Positions 43,161 to 60,952 of a stretch of 64,000 nt of DNA are shown one piece after another. The DNA is taken from NCBI GenBank assembly GCA_030066905.1, contig JASJAR010000002.1, positions 1 through 64,000 of the forward strand, read 5' to 3'. A program made the position numbers and the translations under genes. Source of the stretch: Paracoccaceae bacterium (lineage in GTDB: Bacteria; Pseudomonadota; Alphaproteobacteria; Rhodobacterales; Rhodobacteraceae). Under the pieces are notes generated by a model that saw only the letters and a program-made list of their open reading frames with translations, made no database searches and was not told where the DNA came from. Within the stretch, counting starts at the first letter, position 1; each line of letters opens with the position of its first letter.

Positions 43161-44065
43161 CGCCCTTCGGCGCCTTGGGGGATGGCCGCAAGGTCCACGC
43201 GATCGACCTTCGCAACGGGACGCTCTCGGCCCGTGTGCTCGACTACGGCGCCCGGCTGGTGCTCTATCGACGCGGGTCCGGCCCAAATATCTCCGTCGCC
43301 GGCACACTTCCGGATTACGAAAACGAAAAACGCTATTTCGGGCCGATCATCGCCCCGGTCATCAATCGCATCGCCGGCGCGCGGGCGGAGATCGACGGGC
43401 GGCGCTGCACGTTCGATGCCAATCAGGACGGCCGCCACACGCTCCATTCGGGGCGCGCGGGCTCCCACACGGCGATCTGGGCGGTCTCGGCCAGCGATGC
43501 CGCCTTTGCCACGTTCACGCTCGATCTCGCCGACGGCGCCGGCGGGTTTCCCGGCAATCGCCGGATCACGGCACGCTACGCCTTGGAAGACGACGGGCTC
43601 AGCCTCGACATCGAAGCCACCACCGACGCACCGACCTTGATGAACCCGGGCTCCCATGGTGTCTGGAACCCCGACGGCGCTCCCGATTGGTCCCGGCTCA
43701 GCCTCACCGTTCCCAGCGAACGCTTTCTTCCGACTACGCCGGAGGACCTCCCGACAGGCGAGATCGCCTCAGTGGCAGGCACTCTTTACGATCATCGCGG
43801 CCCCCGGCCCCCAGACTCGTCGCTCGACCACAATTACTGCTTCGAGCCGCACTTCGGTCTGCGCGCCCGGCTCGAGGGCGACAGAGGTGTGTTGGAGGTC
43901 CATTCGGACGCGCCGGGTTTGCAGGCCTATGCCGGGGGCCGCGAGGGCATTGCGCTCGAGCCGCAGCTTTGGCCCGACGCGCCGAACAACCCTCAATTCC
44001 CGTCGATCCGCCTCGCGGCGGGCGAGACCTTCCGGCAACGTTCCCGATTTCTCATCGTCGCATGA
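43148..44065 (+). CDS. galM: Aldose 1-epimerase (galactose mutarotase)
   Basis: 305 residues. GTG 43148 has GGGAGG 9 bases upstream. GTG 43157 (overlapping the previous stop) is the alternative. Catalytic features: VINRIAGARAEIDG, HTLHSG, His in NPGSHGVWN, DHNYCFEP, and Glu in ALEPQLWPDAPN. Interconverts alpha and beta galactose released by the GH42 enzyme so that the dehydrogenase can use it. Last gene of the galactose operon. Confidence 0.85.
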   Translation: MAEVTPFGALGDGRKVHAIDLRNGTLSARVLDYGARLVLYRRGSGPNISVAGTLPDYENEKRYFGPIIAPVINRIAGARAEIDGRRCTFDANQDGRHTLHSGRAGSHTAIWAVSASDAAFATFTLDLADGAGGFPGNRRITARYALEDDGLSLDIEATTDAPTLMNPGSHGVWNPDGAPDWSRLSLTVPSERFLPTTPEDLPTGEIASVAGTLYDHRGPRPPDSSLDHNYCFEPHFGLRARLEGDRGVLEVHSDAPGLQAYAGGREGIALEPQLWPDAPNNPQFPSIRLAAGETFRQRSRFLIVA

Positions 44066-44072
44066 GCGCGCG

Positions 44073-44115
44073 CCGGCCACACCCTGCCGGTCTGGGCCCG
44101 CGACGCCTTTTTTTC
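44073..44115 (+). terminator. Weak terminator candidate after galM
   Basis: Stem CCGGC (44073-44077) / GCCGG (44086-44090), followed 18 bases later by a run of seven T (44109-44115). The gap makes it atypical; no other element is visible before the next gene at 44188. Confidence 0.3.
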
Positions 44116-44187
44116 GCCGAAGGACCTGCCTAGGGTCGCGGCCATGCGCCTATCTGCCCCCACGCAACCCTCGGGCCGACCCGGCTG

Positions 44188-44643
44188 ATGGCCGAGCGCG
44201 AGCCCCCTCCGCCGCGGCGTATCTTCGTCGCCGGCCTGCTGGCGGCCCTGCTCGCGGGCGGGACGACGGCGCTGGTGTCCTTCGGTGCGGTCACAGCGCC
44301 AGACACCGAAACCTTCCGCTTCTCCCGCGGCACCGTTCTGGCGGCCGGAGAGGAGGCACGGCTTCGCGGGGCGCTTGCCGCCGCCGTGGCGGACGACCGG
44401 ATTACAGTGACGGTGACTGGCCATAGTGGAACCTTGGGCGAGGCGGCGGCGAACCTGGCCCTGAGCGAGGACCGGGCAGAACGGGTCCGCACCATCGCCC
44501 TCGACATGGGGCTCGCTGCCGACCGGATCACTGCGTCGGGGGTCGGCGGCGGGGCCCCCCTGCCGCGCGAGGCGGGCCAGTCCGAGCGTGCCCATGAAGC
44601 ATCGCTCGCGCGGGTGGAGGTCACGCTCCAGCGGCGGCGATGA
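44188..44643 (+). CDS. Small membrane-anchored OmpA-like protein
   Basis: 151 residues. A Pro/Arg cytoplasmic start (MAEREPPPPRR), one TM (IFVAGLLAALLAGGTTALVSFGA), then a compact OmpA C-terminal-like domain with TVTGHSGTLGEAAANLALSEDRAERVRTIALDMGLAADRI. The usual peptidoglycan-contacting Asp is not obvious. First gene of a five-gene run (44188-48368) coupled by overlaps. Function unknown; the domain suggests cell-wall contact in the periplasm. Confidence 0.65.
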   Translation: MAEREPPPPRRIFVAGLLAALLAGGTTALVSFGAVTAPDTETFRFSRGTVLAAGEEARLRGALAAAVADDRITVTVTGHSGTLGEAAANLALSEDRAERVRTIALDMGLAADRITASGVGGGAPLPREAGQSERAHEASLARVEVTLQRRR

Positions 44644-45332
44644 TCGGGCGTCTGGCACCCTGGGGCATTGCCCTTCTCGTCGCGGCCGGATCGGCAGCCT
44701 TTGCCCTTGGCGCGCGCCTGCCGCTGCCATTCGACGGCTTCGCCACGCTCGTGGCGGCCACCGGTGCCTTTGTGGGAACGGTGACCCTCGGCCTCCTCCT
44801 GCCGGCAAGCTGGCTCTGGAGCGATGCCGAGCGCCTCCATCACGCCTTCCGCGCCCGCCACGGGCTTTCGGACACCCGCACCCGGCTCGCGCTCGACGCG
44901 ATTACCGCCGCCCACGGCCGGGCCACCGCGCTCCGGGCGGCCTCGGCCCGCTTTGCCGACGATCTCCGCGACCAGACCGGGCGCGCGGCCGACGCGCTCG
45001 ACGCGGCCGCGCGGGACATCTTTTACGACCCCGAGACGCTGGCCTCGCACAGAGCGACGCTGGTGCGATCCGAGCTCATCGAGGAAGCCGTCGTTGCCCA
45101 TGCCCGTATGCGCGCCAAGTCGCGGGGCGAAACGATCGAGGCGCAGATCGCCGCCTCGCGCGGGAAGGTCTCGGCTGCCCTCGCGTCGCTCGAAGAGGCC
45201 TTGGCATCTGCGGAAGGTCGCGCGGCGAACCGGCTCCTGACCGAGGTGGGCGTCGCCTCCGAAACCGCGGAAACCTTGCTTCGGCCACGGAGCACAACCA
45301 TGTCTTCCAGCAGAATCTCAGAGGATCATTGA
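44640..45332 (+). CDS. Two-TM coiled-coil protein of the envelope cluster
   Basis: 230 residues. Two TM segments at the N-terminus (APWGIALLVAAGSAAFALGA; LVAATGAFVGTVTLGLLLPASW), then a long Ala/Arg/Glu-rich helical region (about 75-215) likely to form a coiled coil. The layout resembles the XpaC-like partner of TelA/VWA clusters, but I cannot confirm homology. ATGA overlap with the upstream gene and TGATG overlap with the next gene. Confidence 0.6.
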   Translation: MIGRLAPWGIALLVAAGSAAFALGARLPLPFDGFATLVAATGAFVGTVTLGLLLPASWLWSDAERLHHAFRARHGLSDTRTRLALDAITAAHGRATALRAASARFADDLRDQTGRAADALDAAARDIFYDPETLASHRATLVRSELIEEAVVAHARMRAKSRGETIEAQIAASRGKVSAALASLEEALASAEGRAANRLLTEVGVASETAETLLRPRSTTMSSSRISEDH

Positions 45333-47014
45333 TGCGAAGGACCCTAAACCTGGCCATCGCGGCGACCGTCATGGCAGGGGCACTCGGAGCAACGACGCTG
45401 CGGGCCGAGCCGGGCCAGCTTCTGGCCGAAACGGTCACTGCCCCGGTGCGCGATTGCAACTCCGGCTGGATTGCTGACATGCCGCTCATAGCCTGGGGGG
45501 CGGACGGCGTTGTGGCCTATGCCAACGGCAGTTCGCTGACACCGGACGGCGGACTTTTAGGGGCGGCCGGTCTGTCCCTGGCGCTGACCGTGGAGGACAA
45601 TTTCGAAGATCAGCTCGAGGCCTATCTCGCCTGCGAAACGCCGTATCTGCGGGGCACGCTTGGAATGCTCGCCGCCGCCGCGCCGGTCACCGAGGCCGAC
45701 GCGCGCACCGAGCAGGTCGTGTTCTTCAAGCACTCCTTCTCTGCCGGGGACGGCATTGTCGGCGGCGAGGGCATCGCGCGAATCGAGGACCTTGCCGGCC
45801 AGCGGATCGCCGTGCAGGCGAACGGGCCACATGTCGATTTCGTCGGCCGCGTGCTGGCTGACGGCGGGCTCTCCTTCGACAATGTCGAGATCGTCTGGAC
45901 GGCGGACCTCACCGGCGACGGCGACACGCCGTCGGCCGCCATGCTCGACGGGCGGGCGGACGCCGCCGCCGTCATCCTCCCAGACGCGCGTTTTCTGACC
46001 TCTGACGGCACAGTCGGAACCGGCGCCGAAGGCTCGGTGCGGGGGGCCACGATCCTCATTTCGACGCAAGAGGCAGCCTCGGTGATTTCCGACTACATCG
46101 CCGTGCGTGCCGACTACTTCGATGCCAACCGTCAGCAGATCGCCGAGATGACGAACCTTCTGTTCCGCGCCGAAGAAGAGATGCGGCGGTTCATGGCAGA
46201 TGCCGGCGATCCGCGCCGGGCTGAGATGGCCGCGCTGATGGGCGACGCCCTCCTCGGCGGCCTGCCGCCCGAAGAGGGTGTCTTTCTCTGGCAGGACGCC
46301 ATCACCGACGGCTGGGCAGGCAACTCGCGCCATTTCGCCGACCCGAACGAGCCGCGCCGGTTCGAGGTTCTGCTCGAGGAGGTCAACATAGCGCTCCGCG
46401 GCGCCGACCGGCTGAGCGTGCCGGCAAATCTTGCCACGGCCGGGTGGGACTATACCGCGCTGACCGACGGGCTCACCGACCTCGACGAACGCCAGATCGC
46501 AGCCTTCGACCCCGAGGCGGCGGCGGCCGCCGTTCGAACGCTCCGGCGCACAGGCCAGCTCGACGCCAACACCCGGATCGACTTTGAGGTGTATTTCGCC
46601 CCGGATTCGACGGACTTCCCGGTGGCGCTCTATGAGGCGGACTTTCAGGAGATCCTCCGGCTCGCATCGACCTATTCAGGGGCGATCATCACCGTCGAGG
46701 GGCATTCCGATCCGCTCTACTATCTTCAGCGGGAGCAGGACGGTGCTGACAATGCCGAACTCCGTGCGATCCGGACCAGCGCCCAGAACCTCTCGATGGA
46801 CCGTGCCATCGCCGTGGTGGACGCGCTTGGCGATTATGCAAGCGATGCCGATCTCCGGATGAACCGCGACCAGTTCACGGTGGACGGCGTCGGAATCACG
46901 AGCCCGCGGCACAACCCGCCCCGAACCGAAGCCGAATGGCGGGAGAACATGCGGGTGCTGTTCCGGGTGCTGACCGTGCAGGCGGAAGCCACGACTTTCG
47001 CGCCGTTGCAGTGA
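45332..47014 (+). CDS. Substrate-binding domain fused to an OmpA domain
   Basis: 560 residues with signal peptide (MRRTLNLAIAATVMAGALGATTLRA). Residues ~35-330 read as a periplasmic binding protein of the NMT1/ABC taurine-nitrate/phosphate type (IEDLAGQRIAVQANGPHVDFVGRVLADGG; LDGRADAAAVILPDARFL). Residues ~415-555 form an OmpA-like domain (IDFEVYFAPDSTDFP...IITVEGHSDPLYYLQ...SMDRAIAVVDAL). No ABC permease is nearby, so this is probably a sensor tethered to peptidoglycan rather than a transporter subunit. GAGGA precedes the start. Confidence 0.72.
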   Translation: MRRTLNLAIAATVMAGALGATTLRAEPGQLLAETVTAPVRDCNSGWIADMPLIAWGADGVVAYANGSSLTPDGGLLGAAGLSLALTVEDNFEDQLEAYLACETPYLRGTLGMLAAAAPVTEADARTEQVVFFKHSFSAGDGIVGGEGIARIEDLAGQRIAVQANGPHVDFVGRVLADGGLSFDNVEIVWTADLTGDGDTPSAAMLDGRADAAAVILPDARFLTSDGTVGTGAEGSVRGATILISTQEAASVISDYIAVRADYFDANRQQIAEMTNLLFRAEEEMRRFMADAGDPRRAEMAALMGDALLGGLPPEEGVFLWQDAITDGWAGNSRHFADPNEPRRFEVLLEEVNIALRGADRLSVPANLATAGWDYTALTDGLTDLDERQIAAFDPEAAAAAVRTLRRTGQLDANTRIDFEVYFAPDSTDFPVALYEADFQEILRLASTYSGAIITVEGHSDPLYYLQREQDGADNAELRAIRTSAQNLSMDRAIAVVDALGDYASDADLRMNRDQFTVDGVGITSPRHNPPRTEAEWRENMRVLFRVLTVQAEATTFAPLQ

Positions 47015-47024
47015 GGGACCGGGG

Positions 47025-47765
47025 ATGAAAGCCAGATCGGCCTCGACCTACATCGCGCTTGCCATCGCGGCCTTCATTGCCGTGGCGATCTTCAACGAAG
47101 CCCCGGGCCGGCGCGAGACCGCGCGTGCCCCCGTGGTACCCGATTGGGCGGCGATTGCCTCATGGCCGAGTTTCGAGGCGTCGACGGTTGAGGCCACCCC
47201 CGATCCGGGACGGACATTCACCGTAATCGTTCTCGACGATTCGGGGTCCATGGGAAGCGACATCGAGCCCGCCAAGACCGCCGTGGTCGCCGCGCTCGAC
47301 GCGATGGAGCCGGCGGACCGGGTCGCGGTGATCGGCCTCAACACCGGCGAGATTCTTCCCTTCCTGGATGTGCGCGAAGCGCGCGGCGTCCTCGCCGGGC
47401 GGCTCGCGCCGGTTGTCAGCGACGGGGGCACGCCGCTGACGGCGGCGGTTCGTGCCTCTCGCGTCGCCCTCGAGGCGCAGGCATCGGTCGCGGGCGGGTT
47501 CGGAACCTACCGTATTCTCATTACCACAGACGGGGCCGCCGACGCCGAAGACGCGCTCGAAGCCGAGATTGAGGACCTCGCGCGAACCACCCCGATCCAG
47601 GTCGCAACCATCGGCGTCGGTATCCGCGGCGACCACATCCTGCGACGTCCCGACCTCGCCACGTTCGTCGAAATCGACAATGTCGGCGAATTGGCCACGG
47701 CGCTGCGCGATGCCATCGCCGAAGAGCAGACCTTCAGCGCAATCACCACATTCGAGGGGGGGTAA
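47025..47765 (+). CDS. VWA-domain protein with N-terminal membrane anchor
   Basis: 246 residues. TM at residues 5-24 (SASTYIALAIAAFIAVAIF), then a von Willebrand A domain (about 65-235) with an intact MIDAS: DDSGSMGSD, a Thr in GGTPLT, and TTDGAAD. The domain faces the periplasm and binds a metal-dependent partner. Ten bases after the SBP-OmpA gene; likely acts with it. Confidence 0.8.
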   Translation: MKARSASTYIALAIAAFIAVAIFNEAPGRRETARAPVVPDWAAIASWPSFEASTVEATPDPGRTFTVIVLDDSGSMGSDIEPAKTAVVAALDAMEPADRVAVIGLNTGEILPFLDVREARGVLAGRLAPVVSDGGTPLTAAVRASRVALEAQASVAGGFGTYRILITTDGAADAEDALEAEIEDLARTTPIQVATIGVGIRGDHILRRPDLATFVEIDNVGELATALRDAIAEEQTFSAITTFEGG

Positions 47766-47768
47766 CCC

Positions 47769-48368
47769 ATGGGCCGCCGGATCGATCTGAAATGGGACGA
47801 ATGGAACCCCGGGCTCGACACCGACGACATGACGCTGGCCGAGGTGCTCGCCACGATGCCGGCCGCGAACGCCGACGAAGTCCCCGAGATTATCAAGAAG
47901 TATGAAAATCCCGACTCCCCCGACGCGCTGCCGGGGGCGATCCATCTTGATCGTCACGATTGCATCCACGTCCTTCTGGGGCGGGGCCTCCATGTCCAGG
48001 ACGAAGCCTTCGTGATCGGCGCCACAATGGGGGCCGCATCAGACATCACCGACGAGGCCATCGACCTCTTCGTGCGTGTCTCGACGACCGAATACCCGAA
48101 ACACTGGCGGTTCGAACCCGAGCACATCGCCTCGTTTCGCCTCGGCGTCGGCTTCGCGGTCGACAATCTCAACAATGCCGACCTTCACCTCATCCCGATG
48201 GAGGCGGAACCCTGGCAGTCGAAGAAGGTGGCCGAGGCGCGGCGAGAGCTTGGGATTTCGAAGCACGAGCTTCGCGCCTATTTCCGGAAGGCCGAACTGT
48301 TGGTGCCGGGGACCCGTGCGAGCCGTCGGCTGGACACCAGCGCCCACCGAAAGGACGGTGCGATCTAG
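47769..48368 (+). CDS. Coq4-like protein with HDxxHx11E motif
   Basis: 199 residues, soluble. RHDCIHVLLGRGLHVQDEAF carries HDxxH followed by 11 residues and Glu, the zinc motif of Coq4 (a ubiquinone-biosynthesis scaffold that also has decarboxylase-like activity). The rest (ASFRLGVGFAVDNLNN; PWQSKKVAEARRELG) also recalls Coq4. No other ubiquinone gene is near. It follows the VWA gene by 3 bp and ends 4 bp into the convergent BKACE gene. A lipid-quinone link for this cluster is speculation. Confidence 0.6.
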   Translation: MGRRIDLKWDEWNPGLDTDDMTLAEVLATMPAANADEVPEIIKKYENPDSPDALPGAIHLDRHDCIHVLLGRGLHVQDEAFVIGATMGAASDITDEAIDLFVRVSTTEYPKHWRFEPEHIASFRLGVGFAVDNLNNADLHLIPMEAEPWQSKKVAEARRELGISKHELRAYFRKAELLVPGTRASRRLDTSAHRKDGAI

Positions 48369-49198
48369 GCCGCCGGGCGCAGCCCGAGCATTTCGCGGGC
48401 CTGGGCGAAGGTCGCAACCGGGCGCTCGTAGCGCTCGCAGATGTCCACGGCCCGCCGCACCAGGGCTGCGTTGGAGGGCGCCAGGGTGTGCTTGTCGATC
48501 CGGACGTTGTCCTCAAGCCCGGTCCGGGCATGACCGCCCGCGGCGATGGACCATTCGTTGAGCTCGAGCTGGTGACGCCCGATGCCGGCCGCGCACCATT
48601 CGGTGCCGGGCGCGAGGCGGTCCAACGTCCTGACCATGAAGTCGAAGGTCTCGCGGTCTGCCGGCATGGCGTTCTTCACGCCCATCACGAACTGGACGTA
48701 GAGCCGGCCGGGGAGCGTCCCGGCCTTATGCAGAGCGACGGCCTGGAAGACATGGGAAAGATCGAAAGCCTCCACTTCCGGCGTGACGCCGTAGGTCGTC
48801 ATCTCGCTCGCGAGCCACTCGACAAGGTCCGGCGGGTTCTCATAGACCCGAGTGGGAAAGTTATTCGACCCGACCGAGAGCGATGCCATGTCGGGTCGCA
48901 GCGGCAACATTCCGCCCCGCGTCTTCCCTGCTCCTGAACGACCTCCGGTCGAAAGCTGGATGATCATGCCCGGGCAATGCGCCTCGAGCCCCTCTTTCAG
49001 CCGCGCAAATCGTTCGGGGTCGGAGGTCGGCGTCTCGTCGTCGTTGCGCACATGCGCATGCACGATGCTCGCCCCCGCCTCGAAGGCCTCCTGCGTACTT
49101 TCGACCTGTTCGGCGACCGAGATCGGCACGGCCGGGTTATCCGACTTCCTCGGGACCGATCCGGTGATGGCGACGCAGATGATGCAGGGCTTGGTCAT
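48365..49198 (-). CDS. BKACE-family enzyme (beta-keto acid cleavage)
   Basis: 277 residues of the BKACE (DUF849) family. Zinc ligands IVHAHVR (His-x-His, about 46-48) and Glu in TGLEDNVR are present; QLSTGGRSG and VGSNNFPTRVYENPP are family patterns. Such enzymes condense a beta-keto acid with acetyl-CoA, giving acetoacetate and a CoA-ester; the prototype cleaves 3-keto-5-aminohexanoate. Substrate here unknown. Convergent with the Coq4-like gene; otherwise alone. Confidence 0.85.
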   Translation of the reverse strand: MTKPCIICVAITGSVPRKSDNPAVPISVAEQVESTQEAFEAGASIVHAHVRNDDETPTSDPERFARLKEGLEAHCPGMIIQLSTGGRSGAGKTRGGMLPLRPDMASLSVGSNNFPTRVYENPPDLVEWLASEMTTYGVTPEVEAFDLSHVFQAVALHKAGTLPGRLYVQFVMGVKNAMPADRETFDFMVRTLDRLAPGTEWCAAGIGRHQLELNEWSIAAGGHARTGLEDNVRIDKHTLAPSNAALVRRAVDICERYERPVATFAQAREMLGLRPAA

Positions 49199-50259: not shown

Positions 50260-50736
50260 CTAGCTCAACGAGGCCGCCATTCGCCGCAGTTCGGTGTCAA
50301 ACGGAGAGTCCATCTCGATGTCGCTCGTGAGGTCATGGAGCCGAACAAGGTCCGCCGACAGCCTCTCGATCTCCGCTTCCGAGAAATCCCGATCCGTCGC
50401 CGCGAAACTTCCAAGTGACCGCGTTCCAGAGGACTCGACAGCGATCGACACGCCGTATGTCAGACCGAACTCCGCCGCCGCCGGAAGGATCCCGGCTTCG
50501 TCGAGATCCGCCAGGTCAGACCAGCGGGCCCACCCGAGATTTTCCACGCCCCATCGCACGGTCGGATCGGCGAGGATAAAGCCACGCCTCGAATATTCGT
50601 CCATCCATGCCTTCGGATATGTCTGGAAGATGTACCGCGAGGTCGTGTATTCGAGGTGGAGACCGATCGCAAATCCAATTGGACTTACATTTTTCAGCTC
50701 GCCGAGTACGGCCTTCACCTCGTCGATAGATGACAT
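50260..50736 (-). CDS. LuxR-type autoinducer-binding domain without HTH
   Basis: 158 residues from ATG complement 50736. It contains the autoinducer-binding core with Trp/Tyr/Asp-Pro in the family spacing (AWMDEYSRRGFILADPTVRW) and GVSIAVESSG. The protein stops where the HTH should begin, and no HTH is encoded downstream in any frame. It is divergent from a full LuxR. Like the truncated TraR relative TrlR, it might form inactive heterodimers with LuxR or titrate the signal, but this is inference. Confidence 0.65.
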   Translation of the reverse strand: MSSIDEVKAVLGELKNVSPIGFAIGLHLEYTTSRYIFQTYPKAWMDEYSRRGFILADPTVRWGVENLGWARWSDLADLDEAGILPAAAEFGLTYGVSIAVESSGTRSLGSFAATDRDFSEAEIERLSADLVRLHDLTSDIEMDSPFDTELRRMAASLS

Positions 50737-50817
50737 CCTGTTCCCCAAACGGCCGACACGACGTGCCGACCTGCGCAATTCCGCGCCTACCCTAGGCGAA
50801 GGTGACGGCGTAAAGCA

Positions 50818-51462
50818 ATGTCATCTATGACAAATCAAGAGAGCATGGACGAGCGAGAACGCAAATTGCGCGACTACGCATTCGACGAGCTCGCCCCCAG
50901 CGGGTATTTCGTCGCGTTCCGCGTCGCTTTCCTCCGCCCGGAGTTCGAGTTCAACTCGCTGCCGCGCGCCTGGGTGCTAAAATACACCCAGCACGGCCTG
51001 ATGATGCATGACCCGGTCATGCGGTGGATCTATGGGAATTCCGGGTCGGTGCCCTGGAGCCAAACCGGGTTCGACGATACGCAAGGCGTGCTCGCGGAAG
51101 CCTCCCAGCACGGCCTGAACTACGGCCTGGCCGTGTCGATCGTGGACCCCGCCGATCCCGGCATCCGCAGCTTCGGGAACTTCTGCCGAAGCGACCGGGA
51201 GTACCAACCCCACGAGGCCAAGGACCTGGTCGGCCGGCTGGAGCTCTTCTTTACCGATCTAGAGGCGCCCGCCGACATCACCGAGGCCGAGGTCGAAGCG
51301 CTTCGTCTGCTCAAGAACGGTCTTCTGATCAAGGAGGTCGCCTTCGAGCTTGGCATCTCCGAGGGCGCGGTGAAGCAGCGCCTGCGCGGCGCCAAGGACA
51401 AGCTCAATGCGAGAACGACGCCTCATGCCGTTTCGGTGGCCAGCGATTTCGGTCTGATCTGA
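50818..51462 (+). CDS. luxR: LuxR-family quorum-sensing regulator
   Basis: 214 residues. Autoinducer-binding domain with AWVLKYTQHGLMMHDPVMRW (Trp/Tyr/Asp-Pro pattern) and GLAVSIVDP. C-terminal HTH (about 152-200) with EAEVEALRLLKNGLLIKEVA and LGISEGAVKQRLRGAKDKL. It is followed 116 bp later by the synthase gene. Should respond to an acyl-homoserine lactone and control luxI and other genes. Confidence 0.83.
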   Translation: MSSMTNQESMDERERKLRDYAFDELAPSGYFVAFRVAFLRPEFEFNSLPRAWVLKYTQHGLMMHDPVMRWIYGNSGSVPWSQTGFDDTQGVLAEASQHGLNYGLAVSIVDPADPGIRSFGNFCRSDREYQPHEAKDLVGRLELFFTDLEAPADITEAEVEALRLLKNGLLIKEVAFELGISEGAVKQRLRGAKDKLNARTTPHAVSVASDFGLI

Positions 51463-51543
51463 CGATCTGTGGAGATCATGCCGCAGTTGCAAAGAAGGAG
51501 ACCGCTTCCACTCCATTGGTCTTGTTGTATGCCCCGTGGCTTG

Positions 51544-51564
51544 ACCTACTTGCGCCATGTCGGT
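51544..51564 (+). promoter_or_regulatory. Lux-box-like dyad before luxI
   Basis: ACCTAC (51544-51549) and GTCGGT (51559-51564) form an imperfect dyad of 21 bp, similar in arm sequence and length to lux boxes (ACCTG...CAGGT type). It lies only 15 bp before the proposed TTG start and next to the ribosome site, closer than a standard activator site, so it could also be an operator. Weak. Confidence 0.35.
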
Positions 51565-51578
51565 CGGGGGACTTGGCC

Positions 51579-52241
51579 TTGAGAAGCATCGTTTTCGATA
51601 TGGCGACCATGCATTTGCACGGGTCGTTCTTCTATGACTTCCTCAAGCTTCGGAAGCTCTTCTTCGTCGATGAACTCGGCTGGGACATTCCCACCGACGG
51701 TGTCGTCGAGATGGACCAGTACGACACGCCGCTTGCGAAATACGCCGTCGTCGAGCACGAGGGGCGGGTGATTGCCGGGGCGCGGTGCCAGCCAACCGAC
51801 GTCAATTGGGGTATCTACACGACAATGCTCGAAGACGCGTCCCGGGGGCTTCTCGTCGACATTCCGAAAGAGCTCTTCGACCCGACCCGGAAGGGCCCCA
51901 AGTTCTGGGAGGGCACCCGGCTCGTGGTGTCCAACGAAGTGTCAACGGTCATGGCGCGAACCCAGTGCCTTGCGCTGGTGATCGACGGGTTGATGCGCAC
52001 GATCGATGCCCATGGCGGCGCATCTATGATTACGCTTTCGCCGCTGGCGCTGGAGCGGAGCGCCCGTCTGGTCGGGCTCCAGACGCAACGGGTCTCCGGC
52101 GCCTATCAGAGCGGTTCGGACGGCCGGGAATATGCTGTGTTCGAGTCAAAGGTAGCGCGCGCGGTGGACCGCCTTCGACAGCTTGGCATCGACCCCGAGA
52201 CGGCGGCCGTCACCCCACCGCTCTATCGCAGCGCCGTTTGA
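51579..52241 (+). CDS. luxI: Acyl-homoserine-lactone synthase (roseobacter LuxI type)
   Basis: 220 residues from a TTG start (GGGGGA 7 bases upstream) giving MRSIVFDMATMHLHG, which fits roseobacter homologues. ATG 51600 is the alternative. Autoinducer-synthase signatures are present: LRKLFFVDELGWDIP, DQYDTPLAKYAVV, and the GARCQPT and EGTRLVVSNEV region with the conserved Arg and Glu. Makes an acyl-homoserine lactone from SAM and an acyl carrier. Confidence 0.8.
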   Translation: MRSIVFDMATMHLHGSFFYDFLKLRKLFFVDELGWDIPTDGVVEMDQYDTPLAKYAVVEHEGRVIAGARCQPTDVNWGIYTTMLEDASRGLLVDIPKELFDPTRKGPKFWEGTRLVVSNEVSTVMARTQCLALVIDGLMRTIDAHGGASMITLSPLALERSARLVGLQTQRVSGAYQSGSDGREYAVFESKVARAVDRLRQLGIDPETAAVTPPLYRSAV

Positions 52242-52382: not shown

Positions 52383-54929
52383 TCAAAGGCGCGGGTCGAC
52401 CGGTTCGCTCTCCAGCGCAAGTACCGCGAGCGCGCATTCGTGCACCTGGCGCAGGGGGCGACGCTCGACGAAACGGTGGAGGCCTTCGAGGCCGATCCGG
52501 AACTCACGGTCCGCCAGAGAAAACTTGCGTCCGAGCCCGCGCTTGCGCAACCGTGCGACGTTGGCCTCGAGATCGTATTCCGGCCCGTAGATGATCCGCA
52601 GATAATCGCGGCCCCGCACCTTCATGGCCGGCTGAACCAGACCCTTTGCGCCACGAAGGACAAAGGCGTTCGGCTTCAGGACGACGCCCTCGCCGCCTGC
52701 CGCCGTGTGTGCCTCCCACCATTCCGTTACCTCGTCGCACTGGGCCTTGTCGGTGGGATCGATCCGCCGCCAGCCCGTCGCTTGGAGGATCGGGTCGGCC
52801 TCGCAGAGTGCCGCCAGCGTCGTCATATGCCAGTCATGCGCGCGGTCGGTTTGCACATGGCCTTCGCTTGCCAGAATGTGGAAGGGCGCGATGCGGTAGT
52901 CCTCCAGTGTCTCGGCGCTCCAGCAATACCCGTCGATGGTCCGGCGCATGGCCAGAGCCTTGTCGCGCAGTCCGGCAGCATCGGATCGAAGGTTTTGGGT
53001 CCCTGCGATCGTGCGTGCATCGAGCGCGCCAATAAGAGCCGCGGCGGAATGCTCGGCTGCGGTCACAGTCGGATAGTATTGCTTCCGGAGCAGCACGCTC
53101 GCCTTGGCAGACCAGGGCATCACCTCGGCGTCAAGCAGGAGCCAGTCGGTGTCCAGCGCGTCCCACAGCCCTGTTTTGCCAATCGCTTGACCCAGGCGCC
53201 CCACGACCGCCGCTTCGAGAGCATCGTCGGCAAAGAACGGGCGTCCGGTACGGGTGAAGACCACGCCGGCCTTGCCGTCTTCCACCCCGAACCGCGCCCG
53301 TGCGGCTGTGGCATCGCGGGCAATGACAAGGAGCGCCCGCGAGCCCATGTGCTTTTCTTCCACCACGAGGTCGGACACCCCGCGCGTGGCAAAGAAGTCC
53401 AGTGCCTCGGCGGGGCGTTCGAGATAGGGCCCCTCCGGTGCTGTCGGGCATGCCGCCATGGTGGGGGGCAGATAGATCAGCCAGCGCGGATCGACGGCGT
53501 AGCGGCTCATCACTTCGAGGGCAGCAAGCGCGTTTTCCTCCGGAATGGTCACCACGCCGCCCAACCTCGTCTCGATCCGCTGCTTGCGGGCAAAATCGTC
53601 GAAATAGAGGAGCCTGTCGTGGTCCTGCTGCGCAGTGACGTCGCGCCCCGGATCAAGCGGTTTTGCCGGTACGCTATAATGCGCGAGCGCGGGCACCGCG
53701 ACCGTCTCGCGCTCCGGCCAGCGCAGGGCGGTCAGCTTGCCGCCGAAAACGCAGCCGGTGTCGATGCAAAGCGTGGAGTTCAGCCATTCCGCTTCGGGCA
53801 TCGGCGTATGACCGTAGATCACGTCCGCATCGCCGCGGTAGTTCCGCGCCCAGTCGAGCCGGACCGGCAGGCCGAACTCATCGACTTCGCCGGTTGTCTC
53901 GCCAAAGAGCGCGAAACTGCGCACGGCGGCCGAGCCGCGCCCGTGCATTTCCTCCTTGAGGCCGGCATGGGCGATGACGAGTTTTCCGCCGGCAAGCCAG
54001 GCGTGGGAGCGCAGGCCATCGAGAAACCCGTGGGCTGCCTTGCGGAATGCCTCCGAGGCCCCGTCCATCTCGGCGACAGTGGTTTCCAACCCGTGGTTCA
54101 CCGTCACCTTTCGGCCGTAGAGCCAGCGCGCGAGCTTCTGGTCGTGGTTGCCCATGACGGCATGGCCCGTGCCTTCGGCGCACATCCCCATCACCAGACG
54201 CAGGCAATCGATGTTGCGCGGGCCGCGGTCGGTGATGTCGCCGACGAAGAAGGCGCGCCGTCCTTCGGGGTGGCGGGCCGACAGCAGGCTTTCGCCCGGC
54301 GAATAGGGGTCGTGGGCATAGCCGAGCCGCGTCAGCAAGGCGGTGAGTTCGTCGAAACAGCCGTGAAGATCGCCGATGATGTCGAACGGCCCATGGTCAT
54401 GGCGCTGGTCGGTCCAGAGCGGCTGGCGATCGATTTCGGGTGCGGCCACTTCGCAGGGCGCGTTCATGATGTGGACCTGCCGGAAGCCCTCCTTCTTCAG
54501 ACCCTTCAGCGAGCGCCGGAGCGCGCGGGAATGGTTCCGAGCGACATGGGGCCCGAAATCGCGATTCGCCCGACCGGCGTTGCGGTCGTGACAAAGCTCG
54601 GGGTCGATGTTGAGCACCAGAGCCAGAGGCAGCGCATGGTATTTCCGCGCCAGAGCCACGAGTTCGGCCCGGTCCGGGCGCTGAACCGATGTCGCGTCGA
54701 TCACCGTCAGGAGCCGGCGTCTGAGCCGGATACCGGCCGTGTAGCGCAGCAGGTCGAAGGCGTCGGCGGACGCAGACTGATCGGTCTCGTCGTCGGCGAC
54801 AACGGCACGGCAGGCATCAGACGAAACGATCTCGGTTTCTGCGAAATGCGCCCGTGCGAAGGTCGACTTGCCCGAGCCCGTGGGCCCGATCAGGACGACG
54901 AGCGCGAAGTCGGGAATTGAGATCTTCAT
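52383..54929 (-). CDS. pnkp: Polynucleotide kinase-phosphatase-ligase (bacterial Pnkp)
   Basis: 848 residues with three modules in the order of bacterial Pnkp. An N-terminal 5'-kinase has P-loop GPTGSGKST (15-23). A metallophosphoesterase carries GDLHG (186-190), GDITDRGP (230-237) and GNHD (260-263). A C-terminal adenylyltransferase/ligase-like domain carries EEKHMGS with the probable lysine nucleophile Lys526. It heals 5'-OH and 2',3'-cyclic phosphate ends of cut RNA and works with Hen1 in RNA repair. It is last in the repair operon and overlaps the nucleotidyltransferase gene by 4 bp. Confidence 0.92.
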   Translation of the reverse strand: MKISIPDFALVVLIGPTGSGKSTFARAHFAETEIVSSDACRAVVADDETDQSASADAFDLLRYTAGIRLRRRLLTVIDATSVQRPDRAELVALARKYHALPLALVLNIDPELCHDRNAGRANRDFGPHVARNHSRALRRSLKGLKKEGFRQVHIMNAPCEVAAPEIDRQPLWTDQRHDHGPFDIIGDLHGCFDELTALLTRLGYAHDPYSPGESLLSARHPEGRRAFFVGDITDRGPRNIDCLRLVMGMCAEGTGHAVMGNHDQKLARWLYGRKVTVNHGLETTVAEMDGASEAFRKAAHGFLDGLRSHAWLAGGKLVIAHAGLKEEMHGRGSAAVRSFALFGETTGEVDEFGLPVRLDWARNYRGDADVIYGHTPMPEAEWLNSTLCIDTGCVFGGKLTALRWPERETVAVPALAHYSVPAKPLDPGRDVTAQQDHDRLLYFDDFARKQRIETRLGGVVTIPEENALAALEVMSRYAVDPRWLIYLPPTMAACPTAPEGPYLERPAEALDFFATRGVSDLVVEEKHMGSRALLVIARDATAARARFGVEDGKAGVVFTRTGRPFFADDALEAAVVGRLGQAIGKTGLWDALDTDWLLLDAEVMPWSAKASVLLRKQYYPTVTAAEHSAAALIGALDARTIAGTQNLRSDAAGLRDKALAMRRTIDGYCWSAETLEDYRIAPFHILASEGHVQTDRAHDWHMTTLAALCEADPILQATGWRRIDPTDKAQCDEVTEWWEAHTAAGGEGVVLKPNAFVLRGAKGLVQPAMKVRGRDYLRIIYGPEYDLEANVARLRKRGLGRKFSLADREFRIGLEGLHRFVERRPLRQVHECALAVLALESEPVDPRL

Positions 54930-55729
54930 ATCCGACGCTCCACGATGTCGCGGAAGACCTGATCGGCGGCCTCGCGGTGGGCTCCCGGCGCCGATTGGGG
55001 TTGCTCGTTCCGGGCAATGTCCAGTTCGCGCTCGATCAGGTCGTCGATCGCCGAGATGCGCGGCCCATCGCCGGTTTCCTTCGCGGCGGCTTTGGCCTCG
55101 AGAAGCCTCGCGACCTCAGCAACCAGCGGCGGTTCGAGCCGGAGGCCCGCTACAAGCGCTTGGAGGTTCATCGGCGGGGGCTCCGGCCGAGATCGGCTCC
55201 AACGCAATGCCAGCGCCGGACGCAGAACATAGAAGTACTTCTTGTAGTTGACGGCCTCCCGTCCGGCGATGTGGCGCTGCCACTGACCCTGCCCAAGATG
55301 CAGATAGTGATGCCGGCACGCAAAGTGATGAGCGACCTGTACCGCAAGCGCCTCCAGCGTCCGGCACTCTGCCTCGGACCACCGGTAGCGCACCGGGCTC
55401 GACAGCCATTCCAGCAGCACCGGGTTCGGTTTCAGCAGCAGGTTGAGGGCCTTCCGAAGGTCCCATCCGTTGATGTCGAGGTCGTCCGAAATCGGCAGTT
55501 CGATCACGTCGCGGCCGGGTGTAAGGCTGAGGTACCAGTCCCGCTCATGGGCATAGACGAAGCGAACGTCGTAATCGCTGTCGGGGGAGGGAAAGCCCCA
55601 GGCCCGACTGCCGCTTTCGACTGCAAAGAGAATCCGGACGTTCCAATCGGCCTCAATGGCATCGAGCTTTTCGGAGATGGCGGACCGAACGTCTTTGTCG
55701 ATCAGGGCTTCGAATGCCGGAAGGGTCAT
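54926..55729 (-). CDS. YcgL-type nucleotidyltransferase in the RNA-repair operon
   Basis: 267 residues of the DNA-polymerase-beta superfamily, COG3541 group: ILFAVESGSRAWGFPSPDSDYDVRFVYAH carries the GSxxW and D-x-D catalytic pattern. It overlaps both hen1 (4 bp) and pnkp (4 bp), so it is an integral member of the operon. It probably adds a nucleotide to an RNA end or to a protein. The substrate is unknown. Confidence 0.82.
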   Translation of the reverse strand: MTLPAFEALIDKDVRSAISEKLDAIEADWNVRILFAVESGSRAWGFPSPDSDYDVRFVYAHERDWYLSLTPGRDVIELPISDDLDINGWDLRKALNLLLKPNPVLLEWLSSPVRYRWSEAECRTLEALAVQVAHHFACRHHYLHLGQGQWQRHIAGREAVNYKKYFYVLRPALALRWSRSRPEPPPMNLQALVAGLRLEPPLVAEVARLLEAKAAAKETGDGPRISAIDDLIERELDIARNEQPQSAPGAHREAADQVFRDIVERRI

Positions 55730-57120
55730 GCCACCCTCCGGAAAACGGCTATCTGCGACGGGGCCCCATGTGTGTCGTCGAAGGGCCCGAGCGGCCCGGT
55801 CTCGACAGTATACCCAAAGGCCCCGGCTACGCGGGCAGCCCAGTCGCCGAACTCCGCGCGGGTCCATTCGAACCGGTGATCGCGGTGGCGAAGCTGGCCC
55901 TCGGCCATGCCTTCGAAGAGCGCGTTGTATTCGCGGTTCGGCGTCGTGACGACGACGAGGCCCGGGCGGGCGTCGCCGAAGAGCGACAGCTCCAGTGCCG
56001 AGAGCCGCGGTGGGTCGATATGTTCGATGACCTCGACGAGCGTGGCCGCGTCGAACCCCTGCCAGCGCCGGTCGCCGTAGGTGAGGCTGCCCATCTGAAG
56101 CCGGATGCGCTCGGCCATCGCCTCTCCCGCCTCGTCGAGATAGAGCCGGCGCCGTGCGATCTCGAGGGCTCGCACGGAGGGGTCCACCCCGCAGATCCGG
56201 TCGATCCCGCGTTCGCGTTTCAGCCGGCGGATGAGCTTGCCCTCGCCGCAGCCGAGATCGAGCACGGAACGTGCGCCGGCCGCGAGGATGGCATCGCGCA
56301 CTGCGTCGAGCCTCAGATCGTGGAGCCGGATCGGCTTTTCGAGTACCTCCTCGGCCTCCGCCGCCGGCGCCTCCTCCCCGTCTTCTTCGGGCAGGGCGTC
56401 GCTCAGCCGGTCGAGGGCCGCCTCGACAAGCCCGCGGCGGTGTTTCAACGCCCGCCTGGCGATCATGTCCTTCTCGGGATGGGCCGGCAGCCAGTCGCCG
56501 CCCTTGGCGAGGAGTTTTTCGACCTCGGCGGCATCGATCCAGTAATGCTTGGCGTTGTCGAGCACCGGAACCAGCACGTAGAGATGCGACAGGATCTCGG
56601 CGAGCCGCGCCGTAGTCGAAAGACGCAGATCGAAGATCGCGCGCCTGCCGCTCTCGTCGAGCGGGACCGCCTCGACCGCATAAACGAGGGGAAGAAAGAG
56701 CCGCTCGATCACCTCGAGCCCGCCCGACACGGCGACCGGTACGACGCGGAGCTCGAAAGGCAGCGCGCGGTCGGCCAGCCACTGGCGCTCCTTCGATTTG
56801 CCCGCCATCGTCTGACCGATGGCTCGCGCCATGGCGACCGACAGCAGCGAGTTCGCCGCATAGGGCCGGTCGTTGACATATTGCGCCAAGAGCCCGTCGC
56901 CCTTCTCCAAGCGGCCGCGCACCAGTGCGACCGGGTCGACGGAGAGATGGAGTACGGCGCGGCAGCGCGCCTCGCCGACATCGGGAAAGAAGATCGACAT
57001 CCTGCCCACCGCCGTGTCGCGCTGGTGCAGATGGTCGGGGTGCTTGTGGAGCAGGAACCCTAGGTCTCGCGCCGGATAATCGGCGGGGTCGGCCGAGGTC
57101 AGCGTGATCTCGATCTGCAT
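55726..57120 (-). CDS. hen1: Hen1 3'-terminal RNA ribose 2'-O-methyltransferase
   Basis: 464 residues. The N-terminal half (1-250) is the bacterial Hen1-specific domain and the C-terminal half a SAM methyltransferase. It has LDLGCGEG (about 287-294) and metal-binding EVIEH (363-367), with His412/His415 in RHRDHRFEW. Bacterial Hen1 methylates the 3'-terminal ribose at the cleavage site before Pnkp ligation, so the repaired RNA resists recutting. The ATG follows the rtcB stop with no gap. Confidence 0.92.
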   Translation of the reverse strand: MQIEITLTSADPADYPARDLGFLLHKHPDHLHQRDTAVGRMSIFFPDVGEARCRAVLHLSVDPVALVRGRLEKGDGLLAQYVNDRPYAANSLLSVAMARAIGQTMAGKSKERQWLADRALPFELRVVPVAVSGGLEVIERLFLPLVYAVEAVPLDESGRRAIFDLRLSTTARLAEILSHLYVLVPVLDNAKHYWIDAAEVEKLLAKGGDWLPAHPEKDMIARRALKHRRGLVEAALDRLSDALPEEDGEEAPAAEAEEVLEKPIRLHDLRLDAVRDAILAAGARSVLDLGCGEGKLIRRLKRERGIDRICGVDPSVRALEIARRRLYLDEAGEAMAERIRLQMGSLTYGDRRWQGFDAATLVEVIEHIDPPRLSALELSLFGDARPGLVVVTTPNREYNALFEGMAEGQLRHRDHRFEWTRAEFGDWAARVAGAFGYTVETGPLGPFDDTHGAPSQIAVFRRVA

Positions 57121-58536
57121 CTAGCGTTTCTTTTTCTGCCAGAAGGGCGGGATGTCGCCGGCCATGATGCAGCCGTAAGGGTCGATGTAATCGACGACGT
57201 CGGCGAGCCCGTATGATTTGATCTGCGCGACGACCGCATCGGCGTTCTTGTAGCTCGACGGCAGTTCGGAGGCGTCGACAGTGCCGGCATGGAACCGCAC
57301 GTCGATCCCCGCCGTCTCGGCGTCGAGCGCCTGGTCCGGGGTCAGCTTGCCCATTCGCCGGCGGTGTTCGGAGCGCGAATAATTGCGCCCCGCGCCATGG
57401 GGGCTGAAGCCGAGACCGGTTTCGGCGTCCTTGCCGCGCACGACGAGCACCGGTTCGGCCATATTGAGCGGAATGAGCGTGAGGCCGGTGGCGTCGGCGG
57501 CGAACTCGCGCCAAGCCGGGGTCGCCCCCTTGCCGTGGTAGTAAAGCCCGCCGCGCTCGAAAACGAAGTTGTGCTCGTTCCAGAAACGGTCCCCGACCTC
57601 GGCTCCGGCCGCTGCCGCCGCCCGGTCGTGGATCGCCTCGTGGTTCGCCTTCGTCCAGGCGCGGATCAGTTGCAGCGCCGCCCAGTATTCGCGCCCGTCC
57701 TCGGTGTCGGCCGGAATCCATGCATTCTGGCGTGCCGTGTCGGGTGAGATCTCCGCCCGGTGGCGCTCGGCCACGGCCATGCCGGCCTTGTAGACCATTG
57801 CGCCCGGTCCTCGGGAGCCGTGATGCGTGACCATCGCTGTCCGCCCGGTCGCGCGGGACCGCCCGACGTAGAGAAAGTGGTTGCCGTCGCCCTGGGTGCC
57901 GAAGTGCTCGTCCACCATCCGTGTCGTCTTCGTACCGTTCGTGAACGGGTTTTCGCGCATTGCCGCAGCGATATCCTTCGGCGCCGACCAACGGTCACCC
58001 TGGGGCCTTCCGCCGGGGCCGAAATGGGTGACGGATTGCGCCGCGTCGAGCACGGTTTTGGGGTCGGCGGACCCCAGATCGGTGATCATCACCGAGCAGC
58101 AGATGTCGGCCGAGTGCATCCCGGGATGAATCGCGTTCCGCGCCGCGGCCACGCCGCCGACGGGGATCGTCCCCACTGGCCCCGCCGGGCAGGCATCGGG
58201 CATGATGGCGCCGGCCTCGATCGTGGGCACGCGCATCAGCTCGGTCATCGTCTCGCGCACCTTGGCGATGTTGGCCTCCTCGTCGGGGTGGCTCGCCTCG
58301 ATGTTAAAGTGAAACGGCACCTCGCCCGGCGCGCGCAGGTCTCGGGTGACCGGGGCTGGCGGGATTTCCGGTTCAAGCTCCGCCCGGATACGTACCAGGC
58401 CAAAACCCTCGGCGCGCATGGCGTTCGCGCGCGCCAGAAGATCGGGGTAACGCGGCCCCGGCGGGTGGCCCCAGTCCTTGAGGTGATCGCCGGTGACGGG
58501 ATCGTATTCGCGCTGCTCGGTCATCTTTGGGCTCAT
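57121..58536 (-). CDS. rtcB: RtcB-family RNA ligase
   Basis: 471 residues. Mn-binding Asp144 and Cys146/147 in HSADICC, His220 in GDGNH, His238/239 in THHGSRG, and the guanylylated His380 in SPHGAGRNYSR, the RtcB signature. It joins 2',3'-cyclic phosphate or 3'-phosphate ends to 5'-OH ends using GTP. The start could be 58536 (MSPKM) or 58524 (MTEQREYDP); neither has a strong ribosome site. First protein gene after the Y-RNA array. Confidence 0.92.
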   Translation of the reverse strand: MSPKMTEQREYDPVTGDHLKDWGHPPGPRYPDLLARANAMRAEGFGLVRIRAELEPEIPPAPVTRDLRAPGEVPFHFNIEASHPDEEANIAKVRETMTELMRVPTIEAGAIMPDACPAGPVGTIPVGGVAAARNAIHPGMHSADICCSVMITDLGSADPKTVLDAAQSVTHFGPGGRPQGDRWSAPKDIAAAMRENPFTNGTKTTRMVDEHFGTQGDGNHFLYVGRSRATGRTAMVTHHGSRGPGAMVYKAGMAVAERHRAEISPDTARQNAWIPADTEDGREYWAALQLIRAWTKANHEAIHDRAAAAAGAEVGDRFWNEHNFVFERGGLYYHGKGATPAWREFAADATGLTLIPLNMAEPVLVVRGKDAETGLGFSPHGAGRNYSRSEHRRRMGKLTPDQALDAETAGIDVRFHAGTVDASELPSSYKNADAVVAQIKSYGLADVVDYIDPYGCIMAGDIPPFWQKKKR

Positions 58537-58579
58537 CTAACGGGAAGTGTTGACGAAATTGCGGCGAGGGTCCGGGGGA

Positions 58580-58642
58580 CCAGGGAAACGTCAGATCTCC
58601 GGACCGGGCTTTTGCGATGCGGTCCCACGGGCATTCCCTTGG
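58580..58642 (-). ncRNA. Y-RNA-like module 5 (short, degenerate)
   Basis: Stem strands CCAAGGGA (58642-58635) and TCCCTGG (58586-58580) enclose an RNA of 63 nt. It shares the motif GAATGC-NNNN-GGGACCGCAT on its 5' side with the four other modules, but the 3' motif CTTG is replaced. An internal hairpin GGACCG/CGGTCC replaces the tRNA-like part. Last element before rtcB. No tRNA-like domain. Confidence 0.5.
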
Positions 58643-58671
58643 GCCGGACATTTTCTCGGTGTCCGAACGAC

Positions 58672-58799
58672 CCCGGCGACAAGGTCTGCAAGAAACAACC
58701 CCGGGTCCCGCTCGTGCCAGAGAGCGCCTGCAAGGTGGGGAGTCGAACCCCACGGAGCGCCGGGAAGGTGCGCATGTAGTTCCTCGGGCATTCGCCGGG
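58672..58799 (-). ncRNA. Y-RNA-like module 4 with tRNA-like domain, short acceptor
   Basis: Outer stem CCCGGCGA (58799-58792) / TCGCCGGG (58679-58672), 8 perfect pairs, then internal-loop motifs ATGC and CTTG. A second helix GAGGAAC/GTTTCTT has two G-U pairs. Inside lie a T-arm with TTCGACT loop (58735-58753) and a D-arm GCTC/GAGC with GG in its loop. Only about nine bases link T-arm and D-arm, so the acceptor-like stem of the other modules is nearly gone. Confidence 0.7.
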
Positions 58800-58824
58800 A
58801 TCGCTGTTCGGTCGCGCTCAAGTA

Positions 58825-58955
58825 CTGGCGACAAGTGGGGATGAAATTGATACGCGCTCTGCCGTTTGAGCTACGCGCCGTCATGGTCGGCGCGGCGGGA
58901 CTCGAACCCGCAACCTCGGGTGCTTAATACCTGTAATTCCATCTGCATTCGCCAG
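58825..58955 (-). ncRNA. Y-RNA-like module 3 with circularly permuted tRNA-like domain
   Basis: Outer stem CTGGCGA (58955-58949) / TCGCCAG (58831-58825), 7 perfect pairs, then the ATGC/CTTG internal loop. The second helix GATGGAATT/AATTTCATC has 9 pairs with one G-U. The inner part reads in the order T-arm (GCGGG-TTCGAGT-CCCGC, 58895-58911), a 7-bp acceptor-like stem CGCGCCG/CGGCGCG closed by the loop ACCATGA, T-A, then D-arm GCTC/GAGC. This order is a tRNA with its ends moved to the anticodon side, as in YrlA RNAs. Confidence 0.8.
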
Positions 58956-58979
58956 ACGCTGTTCCTTTCCTTTCCTAGT

Positions 58980-59116
58980 CCCGACGACAAGGTGTTGGCG
59001 AAACGTTTCTTCCGCTCTACCGCTGAGCTACGCGCCAATCCCGAAGGCGTTGCCGCGGCGGGACTCGAACCCGCGACCAAAAGATTACTGATGTAGTTCC
59101 GCCTGCATTCGTCGGG
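58980..59116 (-). ncRNA. Y-RNA-like module 2 with circularly permuted tRNA-like domain
   Basis: Outer stem CCCGACGA (59116-59109) / TCGTCGGG (58987-58980), 8 perfect pairs. ATGC/CTTG internal loop. Second helix GGCGGAAC/GTTTCGCC, 8 pairs with one G-U. T-arm GCGGG-TTCGAGT-CCCGC (59058-59074). The acceptor-like stem (outer CGCG/CGCG, inner CAA/TTG) is capped by a classical CC-TTCG-GG tetraloop, then comes D-arm GCTC-AGCGGTA-GAGC. Best-preserved tRNA mimic in the array. Confidence 0.82.
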
Positions 59117-59140
59117 CATATCCTTTCTTTTCGTTCGGGT

Positions 59141-59206
59141 CGGGCGGACAAGCGGATGACGAGACGAGCACATTTCACAGATGTAGTCCCGCCGGCATTC
59201 CGCCCG
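59141..59206 (-). ncRNA. Y-RNA-like module 1 (short, no tRNA-like domain)
   Basis: Outer stem CGGGCGGA (59206-59199) / TCCGCCCG (59148-59141), 8 perfect pairs, with the same ATGC/CTTG internal loop as modules 2-4. Second helix CGGGAC/GTCTCG, then a small ACAT/ATGT hairpin. At 66 nt it lacks T- and D-arms. First element after rsr. Confidence 0.72.
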
Positions 59207-59222
59207 GATGTGTCTTTCGGGT

Positions 59223-59248: not shown

Positions 59249-59254
59249 GTTCTC

Positions 59255-60939: not shown

Positions 60940-60952
60940 TGCTACTTATTCG

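Follow-up and report, generated by a model that had tools for sequence, protein, structure and literature searches.

A five-gene cell-envelope cassette in Rhodobacteraceae that may be a reduced relative of operons encoding TelA, VWA and SBP-OmpA proteins

Layout of the cassette

We describe a compact set of five genes, A to E, at positions 44188-48368 of the window, by which we mean the whole stretch of DNA analysed: the first 64,000 nucleotides of contig JASJAR010000002.1 from a Paracoccaceae bacterium (assembly GCA_030066905.1). All five genes lie on the + strand, and the sequence reads as neighbours that overlap or stand no more than 10 bases apart. A and B overlap by 4 bases (44640-44643) and B and C by a single base at 45332; the spacing is 10 bases between C and D and 3 bases between D and E. 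An initial annotation of the window had proposed this tightly coupled set, and all five open reading frames lie where it placed them. Its OmpA, VWA and solute-binding protein (SBP)-OmpA fusion domains were recovered with Pfam, the OmpA part of the fusion under the cut-off. The genes are as follows.

44188..44643, + strand: gene A, 151 residues; N-terminal membrane anchor and OmpA-like domain (PF00691, 2.6e-11)
44640..45332, + strand: gene B, 230 residues; two N-terminal hydrophobic segments and a predicted cytoplasmic helical region; weakly XpaC-like
45332..47014, + strand: gene C, 560 residues; exported SBP (about 43-374) fused to an OmpA-type domain (about 415-548)
47025..47765, + strand: gene D, 246 residues; membrane-anchored VWA protein with an intact MIDAS motif, DDSGS
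47769..48368, + strand: gene E, 199 residues; soluble, Coq4-like probable metal-site protein with HDCIH-x11-E at residues 63-79

A Pfam domain scan of the five genes found no permease, no ATPase and no TelA (PF05816), in agreement with the annotation, which had remarked that permease and TelA were missing. The sole PF05816 match of the source genome lies on another contig, C29. In the region 43900-48600 a single weak terminator-like site was found; shuffled sequences had more.

Distribution and conservation

Sixty loci were collected by scanning named genomes with a gene C profile, and a family sample comprised 394 genomes; the two sets share some genomes and are not independent. The order A-B-C-D-E recurs in 20 of the 60 loci (L021-L039 and L044), and the annotation thereby withstands the refuting test set for it beforehand, a lack of conserved gene order. 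By title, these 20 loci belong to Rhodobacteraceae, except for one Geminicoccaceae genome and one Chromatiales metagenome-assembled genome (MAG), and the carriers are mainly marine bacteria with a scattered distribution. Median junction lengths are -4 bases for A/B (19 loci), then 18, 11.5 and 3 bases for the following three (20 loci each). Within the family sample, gene C was present in 7 of 394 genomes (E<=1e-10), and gene E in six of those seven and in none of the other 387 (E<=1e-6). Among 299 sampled genomes of the phylum, gene E was found in the window's own genome only.

The surroundings of the cassette vary. When flanks of up to 10 kb were compared using a simple gene caller (250 genes from 22 loci, including the window and L080), four families recurred in at least three loci, and one of the four, ABC ATPases in general, was seen in six. 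The cassette is self-contained and sporadically distributed, and we favour the view that its five genes work together and are passed on and transferred as a whole. Mean pairwise identity is highest for E (0.74) and C (0.73), followed by D (0.48), A (0.44) and B (0.37), in a set made up of the window and 16-17 five-gene loci from which three of the four Mameliella were excluded and in which gene A of L029 was not located. Because C and E are the best conserved, the binding protein and the putative metal-site protein appear to be the heart of the unit.

The solute-binding and VWA proteins

Gene C carries a type II solute-binding domain of the NitT/TauT importer type, matched by the NMT1 family (PF09084, 2e-5, over the cut-off). 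In an AlphaFold2 model (pLDDT 89.6) this part is closest to TauA (6ssy; Z 25.9, 289 residues aligned, 3.6 A), with SsuA, CmpA and NrtA next. The OmpA part scores under the Pfam cut-off (PF00691, 0.0014, 19.3 bits against 27.2), and in the model it resembles the peptidoglycan-binding domain of TagL (5m38; Z 14.1, 23% identity). The motif VEGH[SA]D is found in all 20 five-gene loci and R491 is invariant in 38 sequences; gene C keeps both the Asp and the Arg that we take to be the conserved residues of the OmpA peptidoglycan-binding motif. Judged from this model, the domain should hold peptidoglycan. Within gene C the SBP part is about as conserved as the OmpA part (identity 0.74 against 0.77), which would be unneeded in a pure wall clamp, and a purely structural clamp is therefore unlikely.

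Gene D matches VWA_2 (PF13519, 1.3e-7) and has a hydrophobic stretch at residues 3-28. The MIDAS residues DxSxS are kept in all 20 five-gene loci. VWA and OmpA-domain proteins also occur together in the FtsZl1/VWA/OmpA membrane-remodelling systems, as described in PMC2875224, but no FtsZ-like protein, GTPase or kinase is encoded among the five cassette genes.

The Coq4-like protein

The exact Coq4 motif HDxxHx11E, which the initial annotation had recognised in gene E, is present in the window copy and kept in 25 of 25 relatives. This motif is described for Coq4; according to PMC9774615, it holds two Mg ions in PDB entry 6E12, and geranylgeranyl monophosphate was seen in the older entry 3KB4. 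When a structure model of gene E (pLDDT 84.9) was compared using VIA-align, the Coq4-family structures 6e12 (Z 7.2) and 3msq (Z 6.8) stood well above the next row (2.6). Gene E thus combines the metal motif of the Coq4 family (PF05019; Alr8543, PDB 6E12) with what the model suggests is probably the Coq4 fold. It differs from that family in falling under the Pfam cut-off, in its length of 199 residues and in being encoded with envelope genes. Among the E copies scanned, only that of L057 gave a PF05019 match (0.0055, 16.5 bits against a cut-off of 22.9); the window copy and the relatives in L049, L053, L021 and L076 gave none. A search of solved structures with the E sequence, alone or as a profile of 17, likewise found no Coq4 entry. 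PF05019 had no match at E<=0.001 in 27 genomes, the window's own and 26 of the family, and E is therefore probably not a general ubiquinone-synthesis gene there.

Relatives of gene E also occur in other settings. In L053 (Verrucomicrobiae; 16221-17543) the relative lies within a longer protein of 441 residues that has a faint Tla3_C match (0.0091). Two are on plasmids, one from Streptomycetaceae (L092, 8980-9588) and one from Nostoc (L093, 9016-9549), with no annotated envelope genes beside them; the Nostoc plasmid has histidine kinases as neighbours, and an AarF/UbiB kinase gene is near the Streptomycetaceae copy.

Longer operons related to the cassette

Thirty-nine other loci found with the gene C profile hold a longer cluster with relatives of C and D, a protein that we call A', a helical membrane protein, TelA and an ATP-binding cassette (ABC) importer of the TIGR03427 type. 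Their titles name Desulfobacterota-type bacteria, Spirochaetales, Verrucomicrobia, Lentisphaerae, Bacteroidota, Poribacteria, candidate phyla, Hahella, Oceanobacter and one Euryarchaeota MAG. Gene D starts less than 200 bases from C in 32 of the 39. A', about 520 residues long and made up of a membrane anchor followed by SBP and OmpA domains, is present in 33, the helical membrane protein in 31 and TelA in 21; the flanks contain a TIGR03427-type SBP in 24, the permease in 21 and the ATPase in 23. These counts include contigs that end before all the genes show. The term TIGR03427-type refers to a profile of our own, and the two loci scored directly, L040 and L049, reached 476 and 536 bits against the TIGR03427 cut-off of 333.9. 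A whole-genome search with TIGR03427 gave matches at 1e-60 in 23 of 29 longer-operon genomes, 18 of them over the cut-off. The Hahella HN01 locus (L049) reads E, permease, ATPase, C, D, A', B', TelA, SBP, where B' is the helical protein, and a relative of E is found within the flanks of five of the 39 loci (L049, L053, L057, L076, L077).

Relatives of gene C are also carried by seven Vibrio plasmids. The one inspected, from Vibrio penaeicida (L094), has the longer operon, with annotations that read OmpA family, vWA, 'phosphate ABC transporter substrate-binding/OmpA family protein', toxic anion resistance and 'putative urea ABC transporter substrate-binding protein'. A hypothetical gene before its importer ATPase was considered as a counterpart of E and rejected; it does not align and has no motif. 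Two MAGs carry clusters at odds with their titles, a Rhodobacteraceae-type cluster in the Chromatiales MAG (L037) and a bacterial-type cluster in the Euryarchaeota MAG (L070), through either binning error or transfer.

The link between the two forms is clearest in gene A. Its hydrophobic stretch spans residues 11-36, and a script found the motif GH[ST]G in all 19 cluster copies that it located, the window copy reading GHSG; the conserved Asp of the OmpA motif is missing from all 19. This Asp helps hold diaminopimelate. Since it is missing, gene A probably does not grip peptidoglycan in the way expected of C. A hidden Markov model of gene A matches the C-terminal end of A' (4e-25 in L040), and in sequence gene A corresponds to that part of A', with the SBP half gone. 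Only 2 of the 33 A' proteins have GHTD, and the lack of Asp in the A-type OmpA domain is therefore old. The initial annotation had treated A as a separate OmpA protein; the domain assignment stands, and the description needs changing to a counterpart of the A' C-terminal part that lacks the canonical Asp.

The cassette and the longer operon share homologous, adjacent C and D genes, the match of A to A' and, in five loci, a relative of E. They differ in that the window has neither TelA nor the importer, A has no SBP domain, and the order is A-B-C-D-E rather than C-D-A'-B'-TelA. Most simply, the cassette can be read as a longer operon that has been cut down: it no longer has the importer, TelA or the SBP half of A, and E is now a fixed member. 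We infer loss rather than gain because the long form is more widely spread. The initial annotation had been reminded of TelA/XpaC/VWA stress clusters. That resemblance is real, and since relatives of C, D and A adjoin TelA (21/39) and the importer SBP (24/39), it most likely reflects descent, with B itself weakly XpaC-like. The helical protein and the SBP occur without a TelA match in 10 of the 39 longer loci, so the window is not alone in lacking TelA. Each of the seven family genomes with gene C encodes TelA elsewhere, and TelA could therefore act in trans.

Gene B and the XpaC-TelA comparison

Gene B has hydrophobic stretches at residues 5-29 and 34-56. Pfam gave nothing meaningful for the window copy, PF10112 (XpaC) included. 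Five of 20 B orthologues match PF10112 at E<=0.1, the best at 2.7e-6 and 27.9 bits (cut-off 29.8) over residues 14-205 of the protein P0008. A comparison of B with seven canonical XpaC sequences of the family by hhalign gave an E value of 0.0022 and a probability of only 13%. On these sequence comparisons we describe gene B as weakly XpaC-like. Of 20 helical proteins scanned from the longer operons, one (L070) matched PF10112 (6.8e-13), and profile comparison of the helical protein with canonical XpaC gave nothing.

A separate, canonical XpaC-TelA pair is present in the source genome on contig C29 (L015, 5442-8724), where the sole PF10112 match of the whole genome is found; the gene after this pair presumably encodes a DUF2927-like lipoprotein. 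In L121 (2490-4393; genome G025), two different XpaC-type genes lie side by side in a TelA region.

These findings bear on the possibility that the cassette is an XpaC/TelA-type device for tolerance of envelope stress or toxic compounds, in which the SBP-OmpA protein senses no solute and serves chiefly as a structural clamp on the wall. The weak match of B orthologues to XpaC (PF10112) and the presence of TelA (PF05816) with 21 of the 39 longer relatives are what such a device would share with XpaC-TelA pairs. In Bacillus subtilis, xpaC-yaaN is part of the sigma-W regulon (PMC3498285), and a Listeria lmo1967 (TelA) mutant is more sensitive to nisin and tellurite, as reported in PMC12791056 citing Collins 2010. 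The cassette, however, has no TelA, its genome keeps a canonical pair on C29, and the SBP half of gene C is conserved as noted above. We regard this explanation as unlikely.

A role in anti-phage defence is very improbable. It would suit a sporadic, self-contained cassette, and with PADLOC the OmpA part of gene A shows a weak resemblance to ZorB (5.9e-4). The only other match to defence models was a faint one of gene D to BrxB (0.033); ZorA, the motor partner in Zorya, is missing among the five genes, as are nuclease and NTPase domains, and the relatives of the cassette occur with importers, although no search for defence genes around their loci was made.

A guanidine-I-controlled importer in the same genomes

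The initial annotation had stressed the absence of a transporter, which is true locally. On the same contig, however, about 160 kb from the cassette at about 206-211 kb (L089, 14079-18693; contig C41 of G000), there is a TIGR03427 importer operon. It consists of a guanidine-I riboswitch (RF00442, 79.4 bits), the TIGR03427 SBP, a permease, an ATPase, an arginase-family hydrolase (PF00491) and a small His-rich protein with no Pfam or NCBIfam match. We take the hydrolase to be a guanidinase. The operon agrees with guanidinase/ABC operons as outlined in PMC12186494.

Riboswitch and importer SBP are present in the same 12 of the 20 five-gene genomes, four of which are Mameliella (9 of 17 when Mameliella is counted once), and the importer SBP in 61 of the 394 family genomes. 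In the family sample it accompanies four of six cassette genomes and 57 of 388 others (Fisher p 0.006, relatedness ignored), or four of seven when G025 is counted (p 0.013, relatedness likewise ignored). In L027 the importer operon lies next to the cassette, downstream of it and convergent; in L044 it is the upstream neighbour and divergent. The other eight of the 20 five-gene genomes, some of them MAGs, show no TIGR03427 importer or riboswitch. RF00442 was found in all 20 of the family SBP loci scanned, out of 30 fetched, and under stricter filters in one of 29 longer-operon genomes, outside the locus; at the gathering threshold it was absent from the four longer loci scanned (L040, L049, L070, L074). 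In a midpoint-rooted tree with several long branches, the Rhodobacteraceae importer SBPs cluster in a 32-row group, separate from those encoded in the longer operons (support 100/100). This tree thus gives no support to the Rhodobacteraceae guanidine importer as the one that was lost.

The cassette may therefore be weighed as a transport helper. In that case gene C would be a scavenging SBP bound to the wall; it would either concentrate a solute or pass it to an ABC importer encoded elsewhere, most likely the guanidine-I TIGR03427 importer, and A, B, D and E would assemble or tune it. The SBP of the guanidinase/ABC operon belongs to the same superfamily as the SBP part of gene C, the source genome possesses such an operon complete with hydrolase and riboswitch, the importer is more frequent among five-gene genomes than across the family and adjacent in two loci, and a TIGR03427-type SBP flanks 24 of the 39 longer loci. 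On the other side, eight of the 20 five-gene genomes have no importer, the guanidinase/ABC operon is a separate operon with its own SBP group, so that it is not simply the importer lost by the cassette's operon, the window cassette has no riboswitch in front, and RF00442 is nearly absent from the longer-operon genomes. We consider a helper role rather unlikely. Sensing is favoured over transport because the cassette encodes no permease or ATPase and because 8 of 20 carriers have no TIGR03427 importer. Guanidine is a lead, not a finding.

Proposed working

Our preferred reading, to which we give a probability of roughly 0.4, is that the cassette encodes a peptidoglycan-tethered complex for sensing or capturing a solute, which acts on a metal- and lipid-related protein. 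The wall-anchored sensor suggested by the initial annotation is plausible. Protein C would be exported and held on peptidoglycan by its OmpA domain, and its TauA-like domain would open and close on a small solute. The membrane-anchored protein D may read the state of C via its metal (MIDAS) site, with A as a periplasmic, membrane-anchored adaptor. B would carry the signal through the inner membrane and control E inside the cell, and E, with its putative metal site and probably a lipid-binding groove, would act at the inner face of the membrane. The first ligand candidate is possibly a guanidine-like or other small nitrogen compound. In this scheme we infer four things: that a ligand binds, which proteins touch, which way the signal runs, and the role of E. 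Its direct basis is that the genes keep their order and occur together, the fold predicted for C, the metal motif of E together with its probable Coq4 fold, the MIDAS residues of D, and the finding that C, D and A have homologues in importer operons.

Several observations weigh against this reading. Gene E is not always needed: Pseudoponticoccus marisrubri (G025, contig L080) carries A-B-C-D without E, followed by a glycine-betaine-type SBP gene. The tie between E and Coq4 consists of the motif, one sub-threshold Pfam match and a Z score of 7.2 that could reflect a common helical arrangement, and Foldseek with the E model returned no Coq4 entry in 50 rows (49 protein kinases and one viral polymerase; best E 0.52). 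Profile comparison did not support B as a relative of the longer operons' helical membrane protein (probability 2%). As for regulatory sites at the cassette, no sigma-70-like promoter was found in 43900-48600 and no RNA element regulating the cassette was found, RF00442 being absent from the window at the gathering threshold. Lastly, the absence of the importer from eight of 20 five-gene genomes is uncertain, as several are MAGs and one (L024/G287) is 77% complete.

A more specific form of the sensing model is a doubtful extension of it. Here an outside solute, possibly guanidine-related, would set the state of a membrane-lipid enzyme, the wall-tethered SBP of an importer having been detached from its transporter and rewired via the VWA protein and an XpaC-like relay to a Coq4-like protein.

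Surroundings of the cassette in the window

Downstream of gene E is an oppositely oriented gene. Read by eye, the genes upstream of the cassette are presumably concerned with sugar metabolism, and those directly beside it are presumably not importer genes. At 50260-52241 there are two genes that we take to be LuxR-like, followed by one presumably resembling an autoinducer synthase (51600-52238), which has no NCBIfam match at 1e-10. An RNA repair locus occupies 52383-62581, with Pnkp (TIGR04075, 1222 bits), RlaP (PF10127), Hen1 (TIGR04074) and RtcR (NF038308, over the cut-off), an RtcB-family protein and a Ro60/Rsr-like protein, both under the cut-off, and two YrlA Y RNAs at 58822-59115 on the - strand.

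Conclusions

We favour the five-gene cassette as a reduced relative of TelA/VWA/SBP-OmpA operons. No paper on this gene set was found among the top-ranked papers of the open-access literature, in keeping with the initial annotation, which knew of no described system with it. TelA and XpaC occur widely and are not well understood. Since genes of this type repeatedly accompany wall-tethered SBPs and ABC importers of a single family, there is now a context in which they can be tested. Gene E places the Coq4 metal motif in a context other than general ubiquinone synthesis, and the short cassette, as a minimal five-gene set, would be a practical model for what the larger operons sense or move.

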